Shown here piece after piece: positions 33,793-52,035 of a DNA stretch of 64,000 bases. The position numbers were made by a program, and so were the translations under genes. How positions within the stretch are numbered: position 1 is the stretch's first letter; each line of letters opens with the position of its first letter. The DNA is taken from assembly GCA_023957975.1 (NCBI GenBank), contig JAMLGM010000002.1, positions 124,001 through 188,000 of the forward strand, written 5' to 3'. The notes under the pieces were generated by a model. That model worked only from the letters and a program-made list of their open reading frames with translations. It was not told the origin of the DNA and did not search any database. Source of the stretch: Microthrixaceae bacterium (GTDB lineage Bacteria; Actinomycetota; Acidimicrobiia; Acidimicrobiales; Microtrichaceae).

Positions 33793-34767
33793 CTACGGCA
33801 GGCGCTGGTACCACCACAGCGACAGCACGCTCGACAACGCGAGCAACCCGAGGCCCCAGCCGAGGACCTTCGCGGTGATCTCGACCCGTTCGATGTCGTA
33901 ACCGATCGAGCTGCCCAACTCCTCGTAGACCTTGGTGAGGTCCTTGGTGGAGGCGGCTTCGAAGAACTGTCCGTGGGTCTGTTCGGCGAGGTTCCCGAGG
34001 GCGTCGGTGTCGACCGGGACCGGCACGATCTCGGTGTTGCCCGTTCCCGTTCCGTCGTCGACCTCGACGTATCCGTCGGCGGTGCCAAAGGCGATGGTGT
34101 AGACGGGCACGCCGGCGTCGAGCGCCGGCTGAATCGCATCCTCGGTGGGCGTGCCGACGGTGGTCATCCCGTCGGAGAGCAATACGATGACCGCCGGCGG
34201 GCGTTCGCCGTCGCTGTCGGCAGGCACCGAGGCGATGGCCTTCAGTGAGGTGTTTACGGCATCGCCGATCGCGGTTCCCTCGCCGAGTTCCAAACCGTCG
34301 ATCGCGGTCACCGCCTGGCGACGGTTGGTCGTCGGCGGCACCAACAAGGAGGTGCTGCCGTTGAAACTCACCACCCCGAGCTGCAGGTTGGCAGGAACCG
34401 ACTCGACGAAATCGACGGCGGCGGACTTGGCCGATTCGATGCGCGACGGGTCGACGTCGGTGGCGTACATCGACAGCGACGTGTCGATCGCCAAGATGAT
34501 CGTGGTCCGTTCCCGGGGCACCCGCTGTTCGTTCTGCGGTCGGGCATAGGCGGTGACGAGCACGGCGAGCGCACACAGGTGCAACGCCGCGACGAGGTGG
34601 CGTTTCCAGCCGGGGCTCTTCGGTGCGATCTTGTCGATCAGGTTGACGTTGCTGAACCGCACGGCGCTTCGCCGACGACGAAACTGCACCGCGATGTAGC
34701 CGACGACGAGCGCAGCGACGGCCACCAGCCACCACAGGCGCTGGGCATCGAGAAACTTCCAATCCAT
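33793..34767 (-). CDS. BatA-like membrane protein with von Willebrand factor A domain
   Basis: 324 residues. A membrane helix at about 10-28 and another at about 57-75 precede a VWA domain (about 88-275) with the MIDAS motif DTSLS and the later LLSDGMTTVG Asp. A C-terminal helix (about 300-320) closes the protein, giving a membrane-bound metal-adhesion domain as in BatA. With the DUF58 and MoxR genes upstream it forms a MoxR-DUF58-VWA set. In other bacteria such sets assemble or mature envelope complexes or metalloenzymes; the client here is unknown. It is the last gene of the minus-strand operon. Confidence 0.87.
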   Translation of the reverse strand: MDWKFLDAQRLWWLVAVAALVVGYIAVQFRRRRSAVRFSNVNLIDKIAPKSPGWKRHLVAALHLCALAVLVTAYARPQNEQRVPRERTTIILAIDTSLSMYATDVDPSRIESAKSAAVDFVESVPANLQLGVVSFNGSTSLLVPPTTNRRQAVTAIDGLELGEGTAIGDAVNTSLKAIASVPADSDGERPPAVIVLLSDGMTTVGTPTEDAIQPALDAGVPVYTIAFGTADGYVEVDDGTGTGNTEIVPVPVDTDALGNLAEQTHGQFFEAASTKDLTKVYEELGSSIGYDIERVEITAKVLGWGLGLLALSSVLSLWWYQRLP

Positions 34768-34790
34768 CGGTGTTTCCTCAGTTCCTTCCC

Positions 34791-34850
34791 GGGGCGAGTT
34801 CTGGGGCGAGTCCCAGGGCGAATTCCAGTGCGAGTTCCAGTGGGGGTTTC
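34791..34850. repeat. Degenerate 12-bp tandem repeat between DUF58 and VWA genes
   Basis: About five copies of a GGGGCGAGTTCC-like unit fill the 108-bp gap between the two genes. It is not part of either reading frame. Confidence 0.7.
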
Positions 34851-34875
34851 AGCGCGGCGGCGATCATGGCGGGTG

Positions 34876-35838
34876 CTACCGCCCGCCCATCGTTAGGTGG
34901 CGCCGGTTCGACGCAACGAATTGGGCGAGGGCCAACAGCCAGTCCTCGTCGGTGCGTAACCGGAGATGGTGGGCCCCCGACGAGGTGATGGCCGCAGCGA
35001 TAGCGCGACGCTGTTCGGCGGCGACGCGGGCATAGTCGGCGCGCAGTCGCCGCGACGAGGTGTCGACCTCGCGCAGTCGCCCGGTCTCGGTGTCGTGCAG
35101 GGTGACGACGCCGACGTCGGGCAATTCGAGTTCGCGGGGGTCGATGACCTCCACGGCGAGGACTTCGTGGCGCACCGCGAGGGTGGCCAACTGGTGCCGC
35201 CAGTGCTCAGGCTCATCCAGCCAATCGGAGATCACCACCACGAGCGCTCGCCGCCGCGCGACTGCGGTCGCCTGCTTGAGCAGCAGCCCGATGCGGGTGG
35301 TTGTGGCATCTCGCGGCGACGCATCGACCCGCTGGAGAATCGACATCAGATGCTTGCGGCCCTGTCGTGCGGGGATGGTGACGGCGCGGTCTGCGGTGGA
35401 GATCACCGCGCCCACGCGGTTTCCGGAGCGGGCGGTCAGGAAGCCGACCCCGGCTGCGGCGGCCAACGCCAGGTCGCGCTTCTCCCACTCCGCCGTGCCG
35501 AAGTCGAGGCTGGCGGAACGGTCGGCGACGATCCACGTTTCGAGTTCCCGATCGGCGATCGTCTCACGGATGTGGGTCTGGGCGGTTCGAGCGGTGACCG
35601 TCCAGTCGATCCGTCGAACGTCGTCGCCCGGCGCGTAGACGCGGGCCTCTCCCGGTTCTGAGCCGTGTCCGGGAACCAGCCCGCGGTGGTCGCCGTGCAA
35701 GATGCCGTCGAGCCGTCGGGTGATCGACATCTCGAGTCGGCGCAACACCTCGGCGGAACGTCGATCGCTCGCGACGGCATCGGCGAGCGATCCGCCCTCG
35801 GGCGGGGTGATGGTGTTGGCGTTGGTGCGCTTGGCCAC
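34876..35838 (-). CDS. DUF58 domain protein of MoxR-VWA operon
   Basis: 320 residues from a GTG at 35838. The DUF58 core motif is YAPGDDVRRIDWTVTAR (about 68-84), followed by a VWA-like fold whose metal site is WIVADRSASLDFG. There are no membrane segments, so it is cytoplasmic or peripheral. The family is almost always next to MoxR AAA ATPases and VWA membrane proteins and probably bridges the two. Only 18 bases separate it from moxR upstream. Confidence 0.88.
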   Translation of the reverse strand: MAKRTNANTITPPEGGSLADAVASDRRSAEVLRRLEMSITRRLDGILHGDHRGLVPGHGSEPGEARVYAPGDDVRRIDWTVTARTAQTHIRETIADRELETWIVADRSASLDFGTAEWEKRDLALAAAAGVGFLTARSGNRVGAVISTADRAVTIPARQGRKHLMSILQRVDASPRDATTTRIGLLLKQATAVARRRALVVVISDWLDEPEHWRHQLATLAVRHEVLAVEVIDPRELELPDVGVVTLHDTETGRLREVDTSSRRLRADYARVAAEQRRAIAAAITSSGAHHLRLRTDEDWLLALAQFVASNRRHLTMGGR

Positions 35839-35856
35839 GGTCGCGACGATTCGGTT

Positions 35857-37068
35857 CTACAGGTAGGTCGGCGGAATCGGCGTCGTCGGCGACGATGCGG
35901 GAGCCGCCGGGGGGATCGCTCCGGACCCGACCCCAGACCCGACCCCTGGGGCGGCGGTGGCGGCGGTGGCGGCGTGCGAGGGCGCCGCGACGGAGGGCTG
36001 GGTCGGAGCGTACGGGTTCGTCGGCGGGGTCGTGGCGGCCCGCGCGTGAACCGGTTGCACCGCCGCAGCGGGGACCGAGGACAGGATCCGTGCCAGCACG
36101 GTTTCGGAGTCGACCTCGGCTGCGAGCGCCTCGTAGGTCAACACCAGTCGGTGGCGCAGGATCTCGGGGGCGACGTCGTAGATGTCCTGTGGCACCGCGT
36201 AGTCGCGGCCGCGCATCAACGCCATCGCCCGACCGGCACGAACCAGGCCGAGGCTGGCTCGAGGGCTGGCTCCGAACTCGATGAACGGTGCGAGGTCGGC
36301 CAGGCCGTAGTTCTGCGGTGTACGCGTCGCGAACACGAGGTTGACGGCGTACTCCAGCACGGCCCGGTCGCAATAGACCGCCTCGGCGTGCCGTTGCAGG
36401 GTGGCCACATCAGCCAGCGCCAGCACCTCGTGGGTCTCGGGCGGCGACACCCCCATGCGGTTCACGATCTCGAGTTCCTCGGTCGGGCTCGGATATCCGA
36501 GGACGATCTTCATGAGGAACCGGTCGCGCTGGGCCTCGGGGAGGGGATAGACCCCCTCGTTCTCGATCGGGTTCTGGGTGGCCAACACGAGGAACGGGTC
36601 CGGGGCCGGGTAGGTCTGGCCGCCGATCGTCACGTGGCGTTCCGCCATCACCTCGAGCAGCGCGCTCTGCACCTTCGCTGGCGCTCGGTTGATCTCATCG
36701 GCGAGGAGGAAGTTGGCGAAAACCGGACCGAGTTCGACATCGAACTCCTCGGTGGAGGCGCGAAAGATCCGGGTGCCGACGATGTCGGAGGGCAACAGGT
36801 CGGGGGTGAACTGGATCCGGTTGAACGTGCCGCCGACGGAGCGGGCCATCGTCTCCACCGACAGGGTTTTGGCGAGGCCCGGGACGCTTTCCAACAGGCA
36901 GTGACCGTTGGCGACGAGACACACGATCATCCGCTCGATCGCCCGCTCCTGGCCGACCACGACCTTGCGCATCTCGAACAGGAGACGTTCCAGCATCTCA
37001 TGGGGGGTGGAGGTGTTGCGGGGTGGTGCCGCCGGATCGTCGGATGACAGGGCGTCGGTCGTGGACAT
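35857..37068 (-). CDS. MoxR-family AAA+ ATPase
   Basis: 403 residues. AAA+ core: VVVGQERAIERM, ESVPGLAKT (Walker A of the MoxR type), FLLADEINRAPAKVQSALLE (Walker B), VLATQNPIE (sensor 1) and SPRASLGLVRAGRAMA (sensor 2). The last 70 residues are Ala/Pro/Thr/Ser-rich and low in complexity, an unusual extension. It acts as a chaperone-like ATPase on VWA partners, here the two genes downstream. The ATG at 37068 has a CAGGAGAGCC ribosome site. It faces away from ftsY. Confidence 0.92.
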   Translation of the reverse strand: MSTTDALSSDDPAAPPRNTSTPHEMLERLLFEMRKVVVGQERAIERMIVCLVANGHCLLESVPGLAKTLSVETMARSVGGTFNRIQFTPDLLPSDIVGTRIFRASTEEFDVELGPVFANFLLADEINRAPAKVQSALLEVMAERHVTIGGQTYPAPDPFLVLATQNPIENEGVYPLPEAQRDRFLMKIVLGYPSPTEELEIVNRMGVSPPETHEVLALADVATLQRHAEAVYCDRAVLEYAVNLVFATRTPQNYGLADLAPFIEFGASPRASLGLVRAGRAMALMRGRDYAVPQDIYDVAPEILRHRLVLTYEALAAEVDSETVLARILSSVPAAAVQPVHARAATTPPTNPYAPTQPSVAAPSHAATAATAAPGVGSGVGSGAIPPAAPASSPTTPIPPTYL

Positions 37069-44269: not shown

Positions 44270-45793
44270 ATGTTGGCAACAGTGCAGGCGGCGACCCTTT
44301 TGGGCGTGCGGGGCTCGCCGGTTCGAGTCGAGGTTCACGTCAGCAACGGAATCCCTGGGCTGAACATCGTCGGGCTTCCGGACGCCTCGTGTCGCGAGGC
44401 CCGAGACCGGGTTCGCGCCGCGGTCATCACCAGCGGGTTCAAGTGGGGCGAGTTTCGCGTCACGGTGAACCTTGCCCCTTCCGCGATTCGCAAGGTCGGT
44501 TCGGGCCTCGATCTCGCGATCGCCGTCGGATTTCTGCGGGCGACCAAGCAGGTCCCCAACCCCGAATGCGGCGACGACTCGATGGCCTTTCTGGGCGAAC
44601 TCGGCCTCGACGGAACGCTGCGGCAGATCGTGGGGGTCGTCCCTCTGGCCGCGTGCATCGAGACCCCCGAGCTCGTCGTGCCGCCACGCAACGCCCGCGA
44701 AGCTCAGGTGCTTTCGCGCCACCGAGTTCTCACCGCGGAGTCCTTGGGCGAGGTGGTCGCCTGTCTGAAGGGTGACTCGCCGTGGGGTGTTCCTGGGCCG
44801 ATGGAGCCCGACCCGACCCCGCCGCCTCCCGACCTGGCCGACGTGCGAGGCAATCGCTTTGCCCGGTTCGCACTCGAGGTGGCGGCTGCTGGTGGCCATC
44901 ACCTGCTGTATGTCGGCCCGCCAGGGAGCGGCAAGACGATGTTGGCCGAGCGCATGCCCGGAGTGCTCGGCCGGCTCAGCGCGGATGAGGCGATCGACGT
45001 GACCACCGTCCACAGTGCGGCCGGCGAAACACTCCCCGCCAACGGCCTCATCGAGATGCCGCCCTTTCGAGCGCCGCATCACACGGTGTCGAATGTTGCA
45101 CTCGTCGGCGGAGGGTCGCACGCGCTGCGTCCGGGCGAGATCAGCCTCGCCCACAACGGTGTGTTGTTTCTCGACGAGCTCGGCGAGTTCAGCGCCGTGG
45201 CACTCGACGCGCTGCGCCAGCCCCTCGAATCGGGAGTCATCCACATCAGCCGCGCCCATGCGTCGGCGGCCATGCCCGCGTCGTTTCAGCTGATTGCGGC
45301 CATGAATCCGTGCCCGTGCGGGTTCGCCGGGGCTCGACGCCAAGAGTGTCGCTGCACCCCTGCGGCGCTCAACCGATACTCACGGCGGTTGTCGGGGCCG
45401 CTGCTCGACCGGTTCGATCTACGCCTGCGCGTCGAGCCGACCGACACCATCGACCTGCTGTCGGTCGAGCGTGGCGAGCCGACCGTCGAGGTCGCCGAGC
45501 GAGTTGCCAAGGTGCGCGAACGCTCGGCTCGGCGCGGGGCTCGGGTCAATCGGCTCTTGAGCTCGACCGAGTTGGACCGGCTCGTCGGATTGGAGGCTCC
45601 GGCGCGCGAATTGCTCGACGATGCGCTGGCCTCGGGAAGGCTGTCGGGCCGTGGGCTTCGGCGGATCAAATCGGTCGGGCTCACCCTCGACGATCTTCGC
45701 GGTGGCGACGGCACACTCGATGCGGGAGTGATCGCACACGCGCTCTCGCTGCGAGCGGATCTGCGATTCGGTGAAGCGGCGGTGATGTCGTGA
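44270..45793 (+). CDS. comM: YifB/ComM family Mg-chelatase-like AAA+ ATPase
   Basis: 507 residues. The N-terminal ChlI-like domain ([19 protein letters not shown]) is followed by the AAA core: [17 protein letters not shown] (Walker A), [11 protein letters not shown] (Walker B), AAMNPCPCG (sensor 1), and a C-terminal lid. In naturally competent bacteria ComM is a branch-migration helicase for integration of incoming DNA. dprA overlaps its end. The ATG at 44270 has a GGAGG ribosome site. A GTGA overlap joins it to dprA. Confidence 0.94.
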
Positions 45794-47157
45794 GCGACAA
45801 CGGGTCGGCGTCGCCGCGCGAGCTGCTGATGGCGAGCACTCAGCCCGGGCCGGGTGCGGGTGCGGGTGCGGGTGTGAGTGTGAGTGTGGGTGCGGATGTG
45901 AGTGTGAGTGTGAGCGCGGCGACTGCCACCCACGAGTTGTTCGAGGCGTGGATCGGGCTGAGTGCGCTCGACGGCATCGGCGCTGGAACCATGTGGCAGA
46001 TCGAGGCGCAAGGCGGGCTCGAGGCAGAGTGGCAACGGCTGATCGGCGGCGGGCCCCCGTCTTTTCGGGTGCGGCAGGAGCATCGAGCCACGTGGGCCCG
46101 GCATCTGAGTTCTGCCGCGGTCGAAGAGGTTCGCGCCCAGGCGCGTCGTCACGTCGAGTTCGGCGTGACGCTGACTCGCCACGGGACGGCTGCTCACCCG
46201 TCGATCGACATCGGAGACCCACACGTTCCCGCAGTACTCGCGTGGTTGGGAAGTCCGGTGGGTCAGGAGTCGCCCCGGGTCGGCATCGTCGGCACCCGCC
46301 GTGCGAGTCGGCTGGGTGCCGAGATCGCAAGCGAACTTGCGGCCGAGCTGACCAGGCGAGGGGTCGCCGTGGTGTCGGGCCTCGCGGCGGGAATCGACGC
46401 CGCAGCGCATCGGGGCGCACTCTCGCGCCTGGGATCGTCCGAGCCGGGTCGAGTGGCGGCGGCTGGGGCGCCGACTGGGGCGGCGGCGCCGATCGGGGTG
46501 GTGGGCACCGGCCTGGATGTTGCCTACCCGCAGCGAAACACCGACCTCTATGAGCGGGTCTCGTCGGTCGGGGCGCTGTGCAGCGAATACCCCCTGGGAA
46601 CGGCACCGGCGCCTTGGCGCTTCCCTGCCCGCAACCGCATCCTGGTGGCGTTGTGCGACGTGCTGGTCGTCGTGGAGAGCAGATCGAGCGGGGGGTCGCT
46701 CATCACGGCCGGCATCGCCGGAGAGCGCGGGGTTCCGGTGCTCGCCGTTCCCGGCTCGATCCGTTCTCACAACGCCACCGGCACGAACCGTCTGATCGCC
46801 GATGGCTGCGCGCCATGTCTCGGTGTGGACGACGTGCTCGACGTTCTGGGCCAGACGACGCCGAGTGTCGGTCACCAGGGAGCATCGAGACGAGGCCACG
46901 ACATCGCAGCTCCGGAGGCCGGGTCGGGAGCCGGGAACCACTCGGCCGTCGGCCACGGGCCTTCCTCCGCACCGGCAGCGTTGAGTGCGACGGAACTCGA
47001 CGTCCTCGACGCGCTCGGTTGGGAGCCGGCCAGCATCGAGATGCTGGCGATTCGCTGTTCGGCGCTGTCGTTGGGGGAGGTCACACTCGCGGTTCAACAG
47101 CTGCTGCGCAGCGGGGCGGTCGTCGACTCCGACGGGTGGATCGAGCGGAGGAGGTGA
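45790..47157 (+). CDS. dprA: DNA-processing protein DprA (Smf)
   Basis: 455 residues. The Rossmann-like core has [64 protein letters not shown] and GSLITAGIA, as in DprA. A C-terminal winged-helix domain follows (about 390-450). DprA loads RecA on incoming single-stranded DNA. Two unusual insertions appear: residues 19-45, a Gly-Ala then Val-Ser run from 6-bp DNA repeats, and an Ala/Gly run at about 220-232. Start is a GTG in the comM stop. Confidence 0.94.
45853..45918. repeat. Hexanucleotide tandem repeat in dprA
   Basis: About eleven 6-bp units of GGTGCG and AGTGTG type encode Gly-Ala and Val-Ser runs near the DprA N-terminus. In-frame contraction or expansion would be tolerated. Confidence 0.85.
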
Positions 47158-47199: not shown

Positions 47200-47271
47200 G
47201 TGAATCCTCGGCCCCCGGCGTGCTGCGCACCCGCCGTCGCACCCGCCGTTGCGCACGGCGATACCCGATGA
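47200..47271 (+). CDS. Possible 23-residue leader peptide
   Basis: A GTG lies 6 bases after TAGCCT, the same layout as the leaderless genes here, and opens a 23-codon ORF rich in Pro, Ala and Cys (NPRPPACCAPAVAPAV, then AHGDTR). Its TGA overlaps the ATG of the next gene (ATGA, 47268-47271). A regulatory leader or coupling ORF is inferred; whether it is translated is unproven. Confidence 0.5.
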   Translation: MNPRPPACCAPAVAPAVAHGDTR

Positions 47272-48272
47272 AGGCGGCGATCGGGCGCCTGGCCGCCGTG
47301 GCCATCGCCATCGCCATGGTGACCCTGGCGATTTGGTTCGTGCGGCCAGGAGACGATGACGGCACGTCGGGTTCGAGAGGGTCGGGCAGCGGGCGTGGTG
47401 ACGGAGCCTTCGACCTCGCATGTGCCGAGGACCTTGCCGAACTGTGTGCGGCCGTCGAGAAGGAACTCGACCCGAAGCGGGTCACCGTCGTGGTGGAGAC
47501 GCCATCGAAGACCATCGAGCGTTACGCGTCGGCCGATCCGCCCCACGCCTGGCTCACGGCCACGCCCTGGCCCGGCCTTGCCGAGGCGCGACTCGCCGAG
47601 GCCGGTCGTTCGACGGTGTTTGACGGTGCCGACGAGCGACTGGCGAGTCGCCCGGTCGAAGTCGCGGTCGCACTGGGTAGATGGACCGACGTGGTGCGGG
47701 GGAGATGTGGAGCAGTTCCCACCTGGGGCTGTCTGGTCGATGCAGTCGATGAAGGTGCATTGACGATCGGGGTGGCTTCGCCGGAGACGACCGACGGGGT
47801 CGCGGCAATTGGAGCACTCGTCGATGGATGGTTCGCCTCGCTCGACCCCCCGCTGAGCAATTACGACATTCTCGATATCGACGAACTTTTCTCCACTCGG
47901 CTTCTGGCGCTGCGCGACGGAGCAGGTCGATCACGGCGGTCGCCGCTGGACAGCATCTTGACTGCGGGCGGCTCCTATGGGGCGGTCGTGGTGACCAGTG
48001 CGACGATGCGCCTCGGGGCGCTCGGTCGTCAGGGGGATCTCACCGTCCTCACCCCAACCCCCGCAGCGTCGGTTTCGGTCGTACTTGTGGCCTCGAGCGC
48101 TGAGGCGCGCCGCGAGGTGCTCAAACGGATTTCCACCGAGAGGATCTCCGAGCTGGCGCGCCGCCAGCAGTGGGGCAACCCCGATGACGACCCCGCCAAC
48201 GACACCGCGAACGACGGGCTGACCCCGGCCCATATCCTCGACCCTGTGATCACGAAATGGACCCGGCCATGA
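47268..48272 (+). CDS. Membrane-anchored, solute-binding-protein-like gene
   Basis: 334 residues. An N-terminal membrane anchor (MKAAIGRLAAVAIAIAMVTLAIWFV) without a lipobox Cys leads to a Gly/Ser/Asp linker and a type-2 periplasmic-binding-like fold (CAEDLAELCAAVEKEL, WLTATPWPGLAEARL, TIGVASPETTDGVAAIGALV). Cys pairs occur near 51 and 58 and again near 145 and 152. The ATG at 47268 is chosen because the anchor begins there and the leader ORF stops over it; an upstream in-frame GTG would add 16 Arg-rich residues. It ends in the start of the lipoprotein gene (ATGA). Partner role in an extracellular sensing or transport complex is inferred. Confidence 0.72.
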   Translation: MKAAIGRLAAVAIAIAMVTLAIWFVRPGDDDGTSGSRGSGSGRGDGAFDLACAEDLAELCAAVEKELDPKRVTVVVETPSKTIERYASADPPHAWLTATPWPGLAEARLAEAGRSTVFDGADERLASRPVEVAVALGRWTDVVRGRCGAVPTWGCLVDAVDEGALTIGVASPETTDGVAAIGALVDGWFASLDPPLSNYDILDIDELFSTRLLALRDGAGRSRRSPLDSILTAGGSYGAVVVTSATMRLGALGRQGDLTVLTPTPAASVSVVLVASSAEARREVLKRISTERISELARRQQWGNPDDDPANDTANDGLTPAHILDPVITKWTRP

Positions 48273-50152
48273 TCCGACGATTTCTCCAGCGCTCAAGCCA
48301 ACCCGCGGACGGCGGGTCGCGATACCACGGCCGTTCGGCGGTTCTGATGGCGATCGCCGCAACGACGCTGCTGCTCGCCGGCTGCTTCGGCGACGACGGC
48401 GACGGCTCGATGTCGTCGGGGTCGGATCTCGAGGATCCCGGCGATTGCGTCGCGGTCGATGTCGCGGTGTCCTCCGAGAAAATCGACCTGTTGAAGGATC
48501 TGGCGAGCACGTTCAACGGGCAGAAGAACACCGTTGCGGACGGAACGTGCATCTTCGTGCGGCCCGTGTCGAAGGCCTCCGGTGGTGCGGCGACCCGCCT
48601 GGCCGAGGGCTGGGATGAAGACGAGGACGGTCCGCGTCCGGTCATCTGGTCTCCGGCCGCCGCGTCCTGGGGTGCGGTGCTCAACCAGAAGCTGGCCGAC
48701 CGAGGCCAGCCGGCCATGGCCCCGGCCGACGCTGAACCGCTGATGTTGACGCCGCTCGTCATCGCCATGCCCGAACCGATGGCCGAGGCGCTGGGCTACC
48801 CCGACACCCCGATCGGGTGGGCCGACCTCGCCCGCCTCGCCACCGACCCCGAGGGTTGGGCGGCTCACGGCCACCCCGAGTGGGGTGCGTTCCGGTTGGG
48901 TAAGACGAACCCGAACTTTTCCACCTCCGGCATTTCCGCCCTCATCGCCCAGACCTACGCCGCGGCAGGAAAGACCGGTGGGCTGAGCACCGAGGACCTC
49001 AACAATCCCGCGGTGTTGGAGTTCTCCCGTCAGATCGAGAGTTCGGTCGTCCACTACGGCGACATCACGATGACCTTCCTGAACAACTGGTTTGCCGCCG
49101 ACCGTCGCGGCACCTCGTTGACCTATGCGTCGGCGGTCGCGGTCGAGGAAAAGTCGGTCATCGACTACAACAGCGGCAACCCCGACGGCGTCTTGAGCGC
49201 AGGGGAGACCCCCAGGGAACCGAACGTGAAACTCGTGTCGATCTACCCGACCGAGGGCACGCTGTACTCCGACAGCCCCTTTTACATCCTCGACGCGGAG
49301 TGGGTGAGCGACGCGGAACGCGACGGCGCCGAGCAGTTCACCGAGTTCGTGCTCCAAGCCGACAATCAGCGGCGAGTCCTCGACTACGGGTTCCGTCCCG
49401 CGAACCCTGCGGTGGCCCTCGGTGCGCCGATCGTGGCGGACAACGGCGTCGACCCGGCACAACCCTCCACACTGCTCGAGGTGCCCGCGCCGTCGGTGAT
49501 GGTCGACCTGTTGGACCTGTGGGCGGCGAATCGCAAGCAGGCGCGGGTGCTCATCGTGTTGGACGTGTCCGGTTCAATGGGCGACTCGGTGGATGGGGGC
49601 GATGGCGACACGAAGCTCGAGTTGGCCAAGGACGCGGTCATCGGCGCGCTGGGCGATTTCAATCCCGGCGACGAGGTGGGGTTGCGAATCTTCAGCACGG
49701 GGCTCGGACCGAACGAGGACCTCGACTTTCAAGACCTGCAGCCCATCGAGGCCATCGCCGCCAACGCCGAACGACTCCGCTCGTCGATCCGCTCGTTGGT
49801 CCCCGTCGCCGGAACCCCCCTCTACACCGTGGCCAAGGCGGCCTACGACGAGATGCAGCAGGGCTATGACCCGACCAAGATCAATGCCGTCATCTTGTTG
49901 ACCGATGGGGCCAACGAGGACGGAGACGATAGCGACGACCGTCGCCAGTTGAACGAGCTCGTGGAGTCGTTGCGGGCATCCAGTACGGGCGAGTTGGCCC
50001 GACCGATTCGCATGTTCACCGTCGGCTACGGCCAGGGTGCACAAACCGACGTCCTCAACCAGATCGCGTCGGCTTCGGCAGGCGCCGCCTACAACGCGAA
50101 GGATGCGTCGACGATCTCAAAGGTCTTCGAGCAGGTGGTGAGCAACTTCTGA
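48269..50152 (+). CDS. Lipoprotein fusing a substrate-binding domain to a VWA domain
   Basis: 627 residues. After a basic N-terminus the signal VLMAIAATTLLLAGCFG has a lipobox (LAGC). Residues about 50-400 form a bacterial extracellular solute-binding domain of the type 2 class (VIWSPAAASWGAVL, TPIGWADLARLATDPEGWA, TNPNFSTSGISALIAQTYA, FFLL-poor C-lobe). The rest (about 425-615) is a VWA domain with MIDAS motif DVSGSMGDS, the Thr in PVAGTPLY and Asp in LLTDGANEDGDD. The fusion suggests metal-dependent adhesion controlled by a bound ligand. It overlaps both neighbours by 1-4 bases, so it is part of one operon. Confidence 0.87.
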   Translation: MIRRFLQRSSQPADGGSRYHGRSAVLMAIAATTLLLAGCFGDDGDGSMSSGSDLEDPGDCVAVDVAVSSEKIDLLKDLASTFNGQKNTVADGTCIFVRPVSKASGGAATRLAEGWDEDEDGPRPVIWSPAAASWGAVLNQKLADRGQPAMAPADAEPLMLTPLVIAMPEPMAEALGYPDTPIGWADLARLATDPEGWAAHGHPEWGAFRLGKTNPNFSTSGISALIAQTYAAAGKTGGLSTEDLNNPAVLEFSRQIESSVVHYGDITMTFLNNWFAADRRGTSLTYASAVAVEEKSVIDYNSGNPDGVLSAGETPREPNVKLVSIYPTEGTLYSDSPFYILDAEWVSDAERDGAEQFTEFVLQADNQRRVLDYGFRPANPAVALGAPIVADNGVDPAQPSTLLEVPAPSVMVDLLDLWAANRKQARVLIVLDVSGSMGDSVDGGDGDTKLELAKDAVIGALGDFNPGDEVGLRIFSTGLGPNEDLDFQDLQPIEAIAANAERLRSSIRSLVPVAGTPLYTVAKAAYDEMQQGYDPTKINAVILLTDGANEDGDDSDDRRQLNELVESLRASSTGELARPIRMFTVGYGQGAQTDVLNQIASASAGAAYNAKDASTISKVFEQVVSNF

Positions 50153-51042
50153 TGCCCGCGTTTCGCGACCGCTTCTACGCCCCGGCGGTGGCTCGGGCGA
50201 TGACCTCCTCCTCGGGCATCCTCGCGGCCGGAGCGGGGGCCAGCGCCGGCATCCTCGCCGGTGGCGGGGGCGTTTGGAGCATCGTCGGCGCCGTGGTCGG
50301 CGCCCTGGCGGGGTGGGGCGCGCGGGTGGCTACGGCGATTCCGCGCCGTCCAGAGCGCGATCGCTTCGACGTCGACGGTCTCACCGAACCGTGGCGGCAC
50401 CTGGTGCTCGATGCCCAAGCCGCTCGCGATCAGTTTCTGGAGACGAGTCGCTGGGCCAGGGCCGGCCCCATGCGCGACCGGTTGATGGCGCTCGGCGCAC
50501 GGATCGAGGCGTCGGTGGGCGAGGTGTACAACGTCGCTCGGGCGGGAGAGGAGCTACTCAGAGCGCGGGCGCGCATCGACACGGCGGCTGCACAGCGCGA
50601 TCTCGATCGGGTGGGGGCGAAGGCGAGCAGCGGGGTGATGTCGGCGACGACCGAGGCGACGATCCGATCGCTGCAGTCACAGATCGCAGCTGCTCAGCGT
50701 ATGGACGCGACCATCAATGCCAGCGTCGAGCGCCTCGAGTTTCTCAACGCTCGCCTCGACGAGGTGGTTGCCGCGGGGATCGAGTTGTCGATTTCCTCGG
50801 TGGCTCCCGACGAATTCGAGTCGGTCGAGACGATGGTGTCGTCGATTTCCGACGAACTCGAGGCGGTGCGTTCTGCGTTCGAGGACACCCCGACGGGGCG
50901 CCCGCAACGCGACGCTGCGGTCGAGTCCCAAGGTTTGGCGCAGCCACAGCTGCAGCCGCAGCCACCATCGCAGCCACAGCCCCAGCCACAGCCGCGGCCG
51001 CAAACACAGCCCGGATCGCAAGCGCCACGCCCGCGGCCTTGA
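50152..51042 (+). CDS. Membrane coiled-coil protein with Gln/Pro-rich tail
   Basis: 296 residues, not recognised. Two Gly/Ala-rich hydrophobic stretches (about 20-40 and 42-60) form a probable hairpin. A long charged coiled coil spans about 80-245 (RARIDTAAAQRDLDRV, MDATINASVERLEFLNARLD). The last 45 residues are Gln-Pro repeats. The topology suggests a cytoplasmic rod anchored at the membrane, perhaps linking the outer SBP-VWA lipoprotein to the cell interior. It starts in the previous stop (TGATG), so co-expression is clear. PspA- or XpaC-like families are alternatives but no motif is decisive. Confidence 0.65.
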   Translation: MPAFRDRFYAPAVARAMTSSSGILAAGAGASAGILAGGGGVWSIVGAVVGALAGWGARVATAIPRRPERDRFDVDGLTEPWRHLVLDAQAARDQFLETSRWARAGPMRDRLMALGARIEASVGEVYNVARAGEELLRARARIDTAAAQRDLDRVGAKASSGVMSATTEATIRSLQSQIAAAQRMDATINASVERLEFLNARLDEVVAAGIELSISSVAPDEFESVETMVSSISDELEAVRSAFEDTPTGRPQRDAAVESQGLAQPQLQPQPPSQPQPQPQPRPQTQPGSQAPRPRP

Positions 51043-51135: not shown

Positions 51136-52035
51136 ATGGCCTGGGACCTCGACGCATTTGAGCGATCGTTGTTGTCGGTGGCAGCGTCGACCCGCGGCGC
51201 ATACGTCCGCGACATGGCGGCCTTTGCGCAGTGGGCGGGCGAAGCCGGCAGCGACGCTCCGGAGTCGGTGGATCGCCTGTTGGTGCGGCGGTATCTCGCC
51301 GAGCAGGCCGGTCACGGCGTCGCCGCCTCCGCGAAATCACCGGCGACGGTTCGTCGCCGCCTCGCATCGTTGCGTCGCTACTACGGCTGGATGGCCCGAC
51401 AGGGTCGCATCGAGGTCGACCCGACCTCGAATATTTCGGCACCGCGTGGTGACAAAAAGCTGCCCCGGGTCCTCAGCGCCGACCAGCTGCACCAGATGCT
51501 CGACGAATCCGCCGAGTCGCCCCACCGAAGCGACGACCCGGCCAAGCAGGCCCGCGACGACGCGATCCTCGAGCTGCTGTACGGCTCCGGGTTGCGGGTC
51601 AGTGAGCTCTGCGGGCTGGGCCCCGACGACATCGACCTGGCTCAGCGGGCCGTCACTGTCTGGGGAAAGGGCGCCAAACAACGACGCGTTCCGATCTCCA
51701 CGCCAGCCGTCGATGCCCTACACCGCCACCTCCGCGCACGAGATGGCCACACCTCGACCGAAGCGGTCGACCGAGGCGCGTTGTTCGTCAACAACCGAGG
51801 TCGACGGCTCACCCCGCGAGACGCTCAGCGAATTCTCGATCGACGCTCGCCGGTTCCCACTCACCCCCACACGTTGCGCCATTCTTTCGCGACTCATCTT
51901 TTGGACGGCGGTGCCGATCTAAGAGTCGTTCAAGAGCTGCTCGGGCACTCGGATCTGGCAACCACCCAGATCTACACCCATGTGTCCAAGGAGCGGCTGC
52001 GAACGGTGTACGACACGACTCATCCGAGGGCCTGA
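51136..52035 (+). CDS. xerC: XerC/XerD-type tyrosine recombinase
   Basis: 299 residues. N-terminal SAM-like core-binding domain, then the catalytic set: Arg in GSGLRVSELCGL, Lys in GKGAKQRRVP, His-x-x-Arg in HTLRHSFATHLL, His in ELLGHSDLATT and Tyr in TQIYTHV. It resolves chromosome dimers at dif. Position beside dprA and whiG favours XerC, but XerD cannot be excluded from sequence. The ATG at 51136 follows TACCGT by 6 bases; the frame upstream lacks homology. Confidence 0.93.
   Translation: MAWDLDAFERSLLSVAASTRGAYVRDMAAFAQWAGEAGSDAPESVDRLLVRRYLAEQAGHGVAASAKSPATVRRRLASLRRYYGWMARQGRIEVDPTSNISAPRGDKKLPRVLSADQLHQMLDESAESPHRSDDPAKQARDDAILELLYGSGLRVSELCGLGPDDIDLAQRAVTVWGKGAKQRRVPISTPAVDALHRHLRARDGHTSTEAVDRGALFVNNRGRRLTPRDAQRILDRRSPVPTHPHTLRHSFATHLLDGGADLRVVQELLGHSDLATTQIYTHVSKERLRTVYDTTHPRA

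Follow-up and report, generated by a model that had tools for sequence, protein, structure and literature searches.

What three overlapping genes (X, Y, and Z) do between dprA and xerC is the question raised by the window analyzed here, a 64,000-nucleotide stretch of a Microthrixaceae genome. A preliminary description of this DNA took them for an operon encoding an anchored binding-like protein, a lipoprotein that joins a solute-binding (SBP) fold to a VWA domain, and a coiled-coil membrane protein, and it proposed a ligand-gated adhesion or envelope-stress sensor. Comparison with related genomes makes it probable, in our view, that X-Y-Z serve as sensor and adaptor within a phage-shock-protein (PSP)-type envelope-stress system that takes its extracytoplasmic input through the SBP-VWA protein. 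The locus comprises the following features:

45790 to 47157, + strand: dprA, left flank, directly beside xerC in 16 relatives
47268 to 48272, + strand: gene X (334 amino acids), N-terminal membrane anchor and divergent type II periplasmic-binding-protein domain, by homology and hydropathy
48269 to 50152, + strand: gene Y (627 to 631 amino acids), SBP-VWA lipoprotein, first possible ATG at 48257
48374 to 48385, + strand: lipobox LAGC of Y (in LLAGC, with C43), residues 40 to 43, read from the sequence, Cys nearly invariant in homologues
48458 to 49396, + strand: SBP_bac_11 domain of Y, residues 68 to 380, with near-invariant motifs around LGKTNPNFSTSG, VVHYGD, and AVAVEEKSVIDYN
49547 to 50134, + strand: VWA domain of Y, residues 431 to 626, by Pfam, model, and structure match
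49562 to 49588, + strand: MIDAS core DVSGSMGDS of Y, by homologue alignment
50152 to 51042, + strand: gene Z (296 amino acids), membrane hairpin and helical bundle, no Pfam family
50209 to 50337, + strand: glycine-rich hydrophobic membrane hairpin of Z, residues ~20 to 62, by model and hydropathy
50392 to 50886, + strand: helical bundle of Z, residues ~81 to 245, predicted structure, mostly with pLDDT over 90
50939 to 51039, + strand: Gln/Pro-rich C-terminal tail of Z, particular to the window sequence and not conserved in the family
51136 to 52035, + strand: xerC, right flank

X and Y overlap by 4 bases, and the TGA of Y shares 1 base with the ATG of Z, as previously described. All gene coordinates hold except the start of X, which is best placed at ATG 47268 and not at ~47200, on the basis of the family N-terminus MxRLLAxxxAVAMV; its stop is at 48270 to 48272. 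For Y, the ATGA overlap with X favors a start at 48269 over the ATG at 48257. The reading of the central gene as a lipoprotein with an SBP domain and a VWA domain bearing an intact MIDAS is borne out. Its SBP half matches SBP_bac_11 (E = 4.6e-14; PF13531, 53 bits against a cutoff of 25), its VWA half exceeds the Pfam cutoff (E = 3.9e-12), and MIDAS residues D436, S438, S440, T520, and D550, in the pattern of DxSxS plus a distal Thr and Asp, are invariant in 70 homologues. An AF2 model (pLDDT 89, pTM 0.86) confidently assigns the SBP and VWA folds. Conservation is higher in the SBP half than in the VWA half, with a mean majority-residue frequency of 0.73 versus 0.65 and 88 versus 35 near-invariant positions, which suggests that the binding half may take one conserved ligand.

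X has a single N-terminal anchor, and its own sequence yielded no convincing match in a Pfam scan; 3 of 23 members of its family match SBP_bac_11, with a best value of 5.3e-5. A profile of X nonetheless aligns with the N-terminal two-thirds of Y, up to Y residue 426 (hhalign probability 96.8, E = 2.3e-10, 329 columns). The upstream gene thus encodes an anchored binding-like protein, as had been described, and by this alignment it is a divergent stand-alone paralogue of the SBP half of Y. Relatives share ~25% identity with the window protein for X and ~60% for Y, and few residues of X are kept other than the family-invariant Cys52, Cys60, Cys147, and Cys155. Because X does not retain the LGKTNPNFSTSG motif of Y, a structural or regulatory role beside Y is more likely for it than that of a further receptor.

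Z has no convincing match to any Pfam family in the scan, and PspB, PspC, LiaI, and PspM are not among the 25 of 61 Z Pfam matches listed. Its description as a membrane hairpin with a coiled coil and a Gln-Pro tail stands for the hairpin; what follows the hairpin is predicted to be a helical bundle, and the tail is present. Kinship of Z with PspA was rejected (hhalign probability 1.2), and a structural search for the fold returned generic helical bundles only, the best at Z 14.2, in a range that is uninformative for helical models. A Z-like gene (2e-8) also lies directly after Y on a Miltoncostaea megaplasmid. At one locus (L105, 4512 to 5492), a Z-type bundle, one member of the Z alignment, is apparently fused to an RDD membrane domain (PF06271, 5.8e-11), which suggests that such bundles could be mobile modules of the cytosol.

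The preliminary description would be refuted if the three genes rarely co-occurred elsewhere, which proved not to be the case. Relatives of Y are encoded in 500 stretches detected by scanning GTDB genomes, among them the cultured acidimicrobiial isolates Desertimonas flava and strain IMCC26207; among the best 80 of these 500 loci, which by title belong to Acidimicrobiia or other Actinomycetota apart from a few odd labels, Y was called in 76. Y is immediately preceded by X in 68 of the 76 Actinomycetota loci and immediately followed by Z in 68. Kept in dozens of loci, the X-Y-Z arrangement is far beyond chance. In the window genome and 60 relatives (61 genomes), searches at the single-sequence level detected Z in 42, Y in 34, and X in 20.

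The gene order common to relatives is proA / AAA+-X-Y-Z-MurJ-like-PspA / proB-obg, and the commonest spacing is -4 for AAA-X, X-Y, and Z-MurJ. An AAA+ gene is present in 53 of the 76 loci, PspA in 52, and a MurJ-like gene in 35; contig ends truncate many of these loci. Pfam assigns these families clearly (PspA_IM30, PF04012, 7.7e-26; MurJ, 1e-61; AAA, 2e-16; AAA_lid_6, 6.1e-21). The AAA+ protein is nearest to SpoVK, EccA, and CbbX, yet falls under the cutoffs of all three; a TerB-like N-terminal domain suspected by eye had no Pfam support in 10 members. The earlier statement that no permease or ATPase is present therefore holds within the window but not, for the ATPase, in relatives, where the same operon includes the AAA+ protein and often a MurJ-like flippase. 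No PspF, ClgR, or LiaRS regulator was recognized among the recurrent neighbors; single unknown genes were scanned in part.

PspA is a hallmark protein of envelope stress and membrane repair. It was found in 52 of the 61 genomes, nearly always as a single copy, and it is present in every genome with Y (34/34, Fisher P = 2.7e-4; per genus, P = 0.022) and in every genome with Z (42/42, P = 5e-6; per genus, 7e-4), with phylogeny entering these values through the genus count only and some genomes being incomplete. Both Y and Z are absent from the nine genomes that lack PspA. Y and PspA share a contig in 25 of the 34 genomes with Y, and in 24 of these 25 they lie within 8 kb. At seven loci (L071, L095, L096, L097, L099, L100, and L103) Z accompanies PspA where X and Y are missing, and this persistence suggests that Z is the partner of PspA. 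The envelope-stress part of the earlier proposal gains from the operon and the co-occurrence, which also independently support the view that the genes do not encode a transporter; for ligand-gated adhesion, nothing emerged beyond the VWA domain and its MIDAS.

The association with PspA extends to more distant Actinomycetota families, where Y, Z, and PspA occur together (L220 to L224); at L230, Y and PspA flank a gene that occupies the place of Z and is unmatched by the Z model. A few Acidimicrobiia loci (L165, L166, L168, and L176) carry X-Y-Z without PspA, as an intact cassette elsewhere, and PspA is missing from the surroundings of many distant SBP-VWA homologues, such as those in Streptomyces.

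The constancy of PspA and the optional nature of the MurJ-like gene lead us to rank three other explanations below a PSP-type system. One is a lipid II or cell wall module in which X-Y-Z control or serve the MurJ-like flippase, for example by detecting an external precursor, undecaprenyl-linked or of the wall, and tying flipping to the repair of the membrane, with PspA as the repair arm. Where the flippase gene occurs it is almost always directly after Z (33 loci), with the -4 coupling noted above, and in the window genome the corresponding protein comes in addition to another full MurJ. The genes that occupy the slot between Z and PspA (L071, 7267 to 8928, and other loci) belong to two MurJ clades set far apart in the tree, with connecting branches of 2.9 and 2.0 changes per column; this suggests gene replacement in place, as if the slot itself mattered. 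However, PspA directly follows Z in 20 of the 76 loci, making the MurJ-like gene optional, and no MurJ accompanies the X-Y-Z copy in the window. We regard such a module as unlikely.

It is very improbable that X and Y are orphan solute-binding proteins, whether supplying a transporter whose genes lie at another site or scavenging a nutrient. The structures nearest to the SBP half of the Y model are binders of sugar phosphate, sulfate, and ferric iron (AfuA, sulfate-binding protein, and FbpA). At one locus (L178, 444 to 7366), genes in the order Y-Z-X directly follow what look like genes for ABC transport of the iron/B12 type, a binding protein included. This is the one case seen with an adjacent system: no ABC importer permease or ATPase was found in the window or in nearly all other loci, and a role as orphan binding proteins would leave unexplained both the fused VWA domain and the coupling to Z and PspA.

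That the genes encode a device for surface adhesion or for pilus-type assembly, in which Y would be a metal-dependent adhesin, is an outside chance at best. The intact MIDAS would suit such a role, the only sequence match to Y among solved structures is the VWA domain of a secreted hemolysin-type/LapA adhesin (9no5), and many loci have genes of the Tad pilus type on the far side of proB-obg. But Y is a lipoprotein in which we saw no cell wall sorting feature, the Tad genes are separated from the operon by proB and obg and run in the opposite orientation, and PspA is far more constant than they are.

Under a PSP-type arrangement, anchored X and lipoprotein Y would sit at the external side of the cytoplasmic membrane, where the binding half of Y would take up its ligand and the MIDAS-bearing VWA domain would bind a partner, which may be X, the MurJ-like protein, or an envelope component, in a metal-dependent manner. 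Z would have its hairpin inserted in the membrane and its helical bundle in the cytosol, and would relay this state and dock PspA at the membrane; the AAA+ protein would remodel the PspA polymer. Somewhat more tentatively, at close to even odds, this could be a new PSP type in Acidimicrobiia and other Actinomycetota, in which the SBP-VWA lipoprotein and a degenerate SBP partner give PspA a small-molecule- and metal-dependent extracytoplasmic input through a new adaptor family, Z, together with an AAA+ protein for remodelling and, in many cases, a MurJ-like flippase dedicated to the system. The nature of the signal for PSP systems is a question of long standing. Should Y be the input, the high conservation of its binding half would put that signal within reach of ordinary ligand screening, and Z would be a new family of PspA anchors.

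The window genome has one Y and one PspA, and the two are apart. In place of the operon seen in relatives, its sole PspA lies on another contig (C10, locus L071), in what corresponds to the ancestral arrangement without X and Y: AAA+, a Z paralogue, a MurJ-like gene, and PspA. The preliminary description had dprA and xerC as usual neighbors or near-neighbors; their adjacency is confirmed in those 16 relatives, where no X-Y-Z intervenes. In trees, the window Y groups with two genomes of the same family (G022 and G011; 96/97), and the two Z genes of the window genome share one clade (99/99), with weak support for pairing them directly (83/39). These placements led us to reject distant transfer as the origin of the window copy. 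Taken together with the dprA-xerC adjacency and the C10 locus, they are explained most simply if X-Y-Z moved to the dprA-xerC junction inside the lineage and Z was duplicated, one copy staying with each half; the placement is, on this evidence, a lineage-specific relocation. That the moved cassette and the old locus each keep a Z fits a role of Z as adaptor. The moved cassette would have to act on PspA in trans, and the window genome thereby offers a natural experiment in which a sensor cassette is separated from PspA. A search for mobile-element borders at 47.2 and 51.1 kb gave short, chance-like repeats only, and a role in defense was dismissed after no PADLOC match was obtained.

Known PSP systems, among them pspFABC, ClgR-PspAMN, and LiaIH, have been surveyed (Ravi et al. 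2024, PMC11237479). The main text of that survey includes operons of PspA/Snf7 with AAA+ proteins, one with a solute-binding PBPB-OmpA protein, and the terms Willebrand, substrate-binding, SBP, MurJ, and Acidimicrob are absent from that main text. Literature searches pairing PspA with VWA, SBP, or MurJ found no paper on such an arrangement. In relatives, the X-Y-Z operon shares with PSP systems PspA as its core and, as in some lineages, a dedicated AAA+ ATPase, and Z would be a putative membrane partner of PspA, but it differs in its extracytoplasmic X/Y pair with an SBP-VWA lipoprotein, in its frequent MurJ-like gene without an ABC transporter, and in Z, which lacks a Pfam family. The nearest precedent for the proposed docking role of Z is LiaI, which recruits the PspA orthologue LiaH to the membrane (PMC12791056); PspBC and PspM may be likened to it as well. 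The architecture of Y is already named in RefSeq as "substrate-binding and VWA domain-containing protein" (WP_332880827.1, Streptomyces; 37% identity over 91%), an entry that as far as we found is a name only and has no PspA annotated in its neighborhood. With relatives of Y in 500 stretches of public genomes, the module is widespread, yet as far as we could find it is undescribed.

Two other groups of VWA proteins were compared. BatB (3ibs) of the BatA/BatB-MoxR systems is the top-ranked VWA structure for the VWA half of Y, which also matches a CMG2-type VWA; in contrast to those systems, the X-Y-Z operon has no MoxR or DUF58 gene, and the VWA domain of Y is fused to an SBP domain in a lipoprotein. 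Elsewhere in the window (33793 to 37068, - strand), a separate cluster resembles, from translations read by eye, a BatA-type VWA protein, a DUF58 protein, and a MoxR ATPase. VWA proteins also feature in the Ter/Tel tellurite-type stress systems, a link to which had been suggested earlier. TelA (PF05816) occurred in 0 of 41 genomes, while the same search was positive in 3 of 14 control genomes, and membership in a Ter/Tel system was rejected.

Several further observations concern distant homologues of Y. Beside one of them, a gene (L225, 9272 to 10276) encodes a protein whose N-terminal domain is joined by a membrane segment and a helical region at the C-terminus; the helical region has no Pfam match, and the protein could be an alternative partner of Y. 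On Thiodictyon plasmid pTs417 (L273, 5881 to 9912), the gene for a gammaproteobacterial SBP-VWA homologue (28.8%) precedes genes for another SBP and for a small secreted protein that looks helical; the set may be a distant analogue of X-Y-Z. An SBP-VWA homologue is also encoded on an unverified faecal scaffold labelled "Bacteriophage sp." (L275, MT838053.1, 1847 to 3652), a record that may be mislabelled since its other genes look bacterial. Within the window, dprA itself contains a low-complexity Gly-Ala/Ser-Val repeat near its N-terminus (~45830 to 45920).
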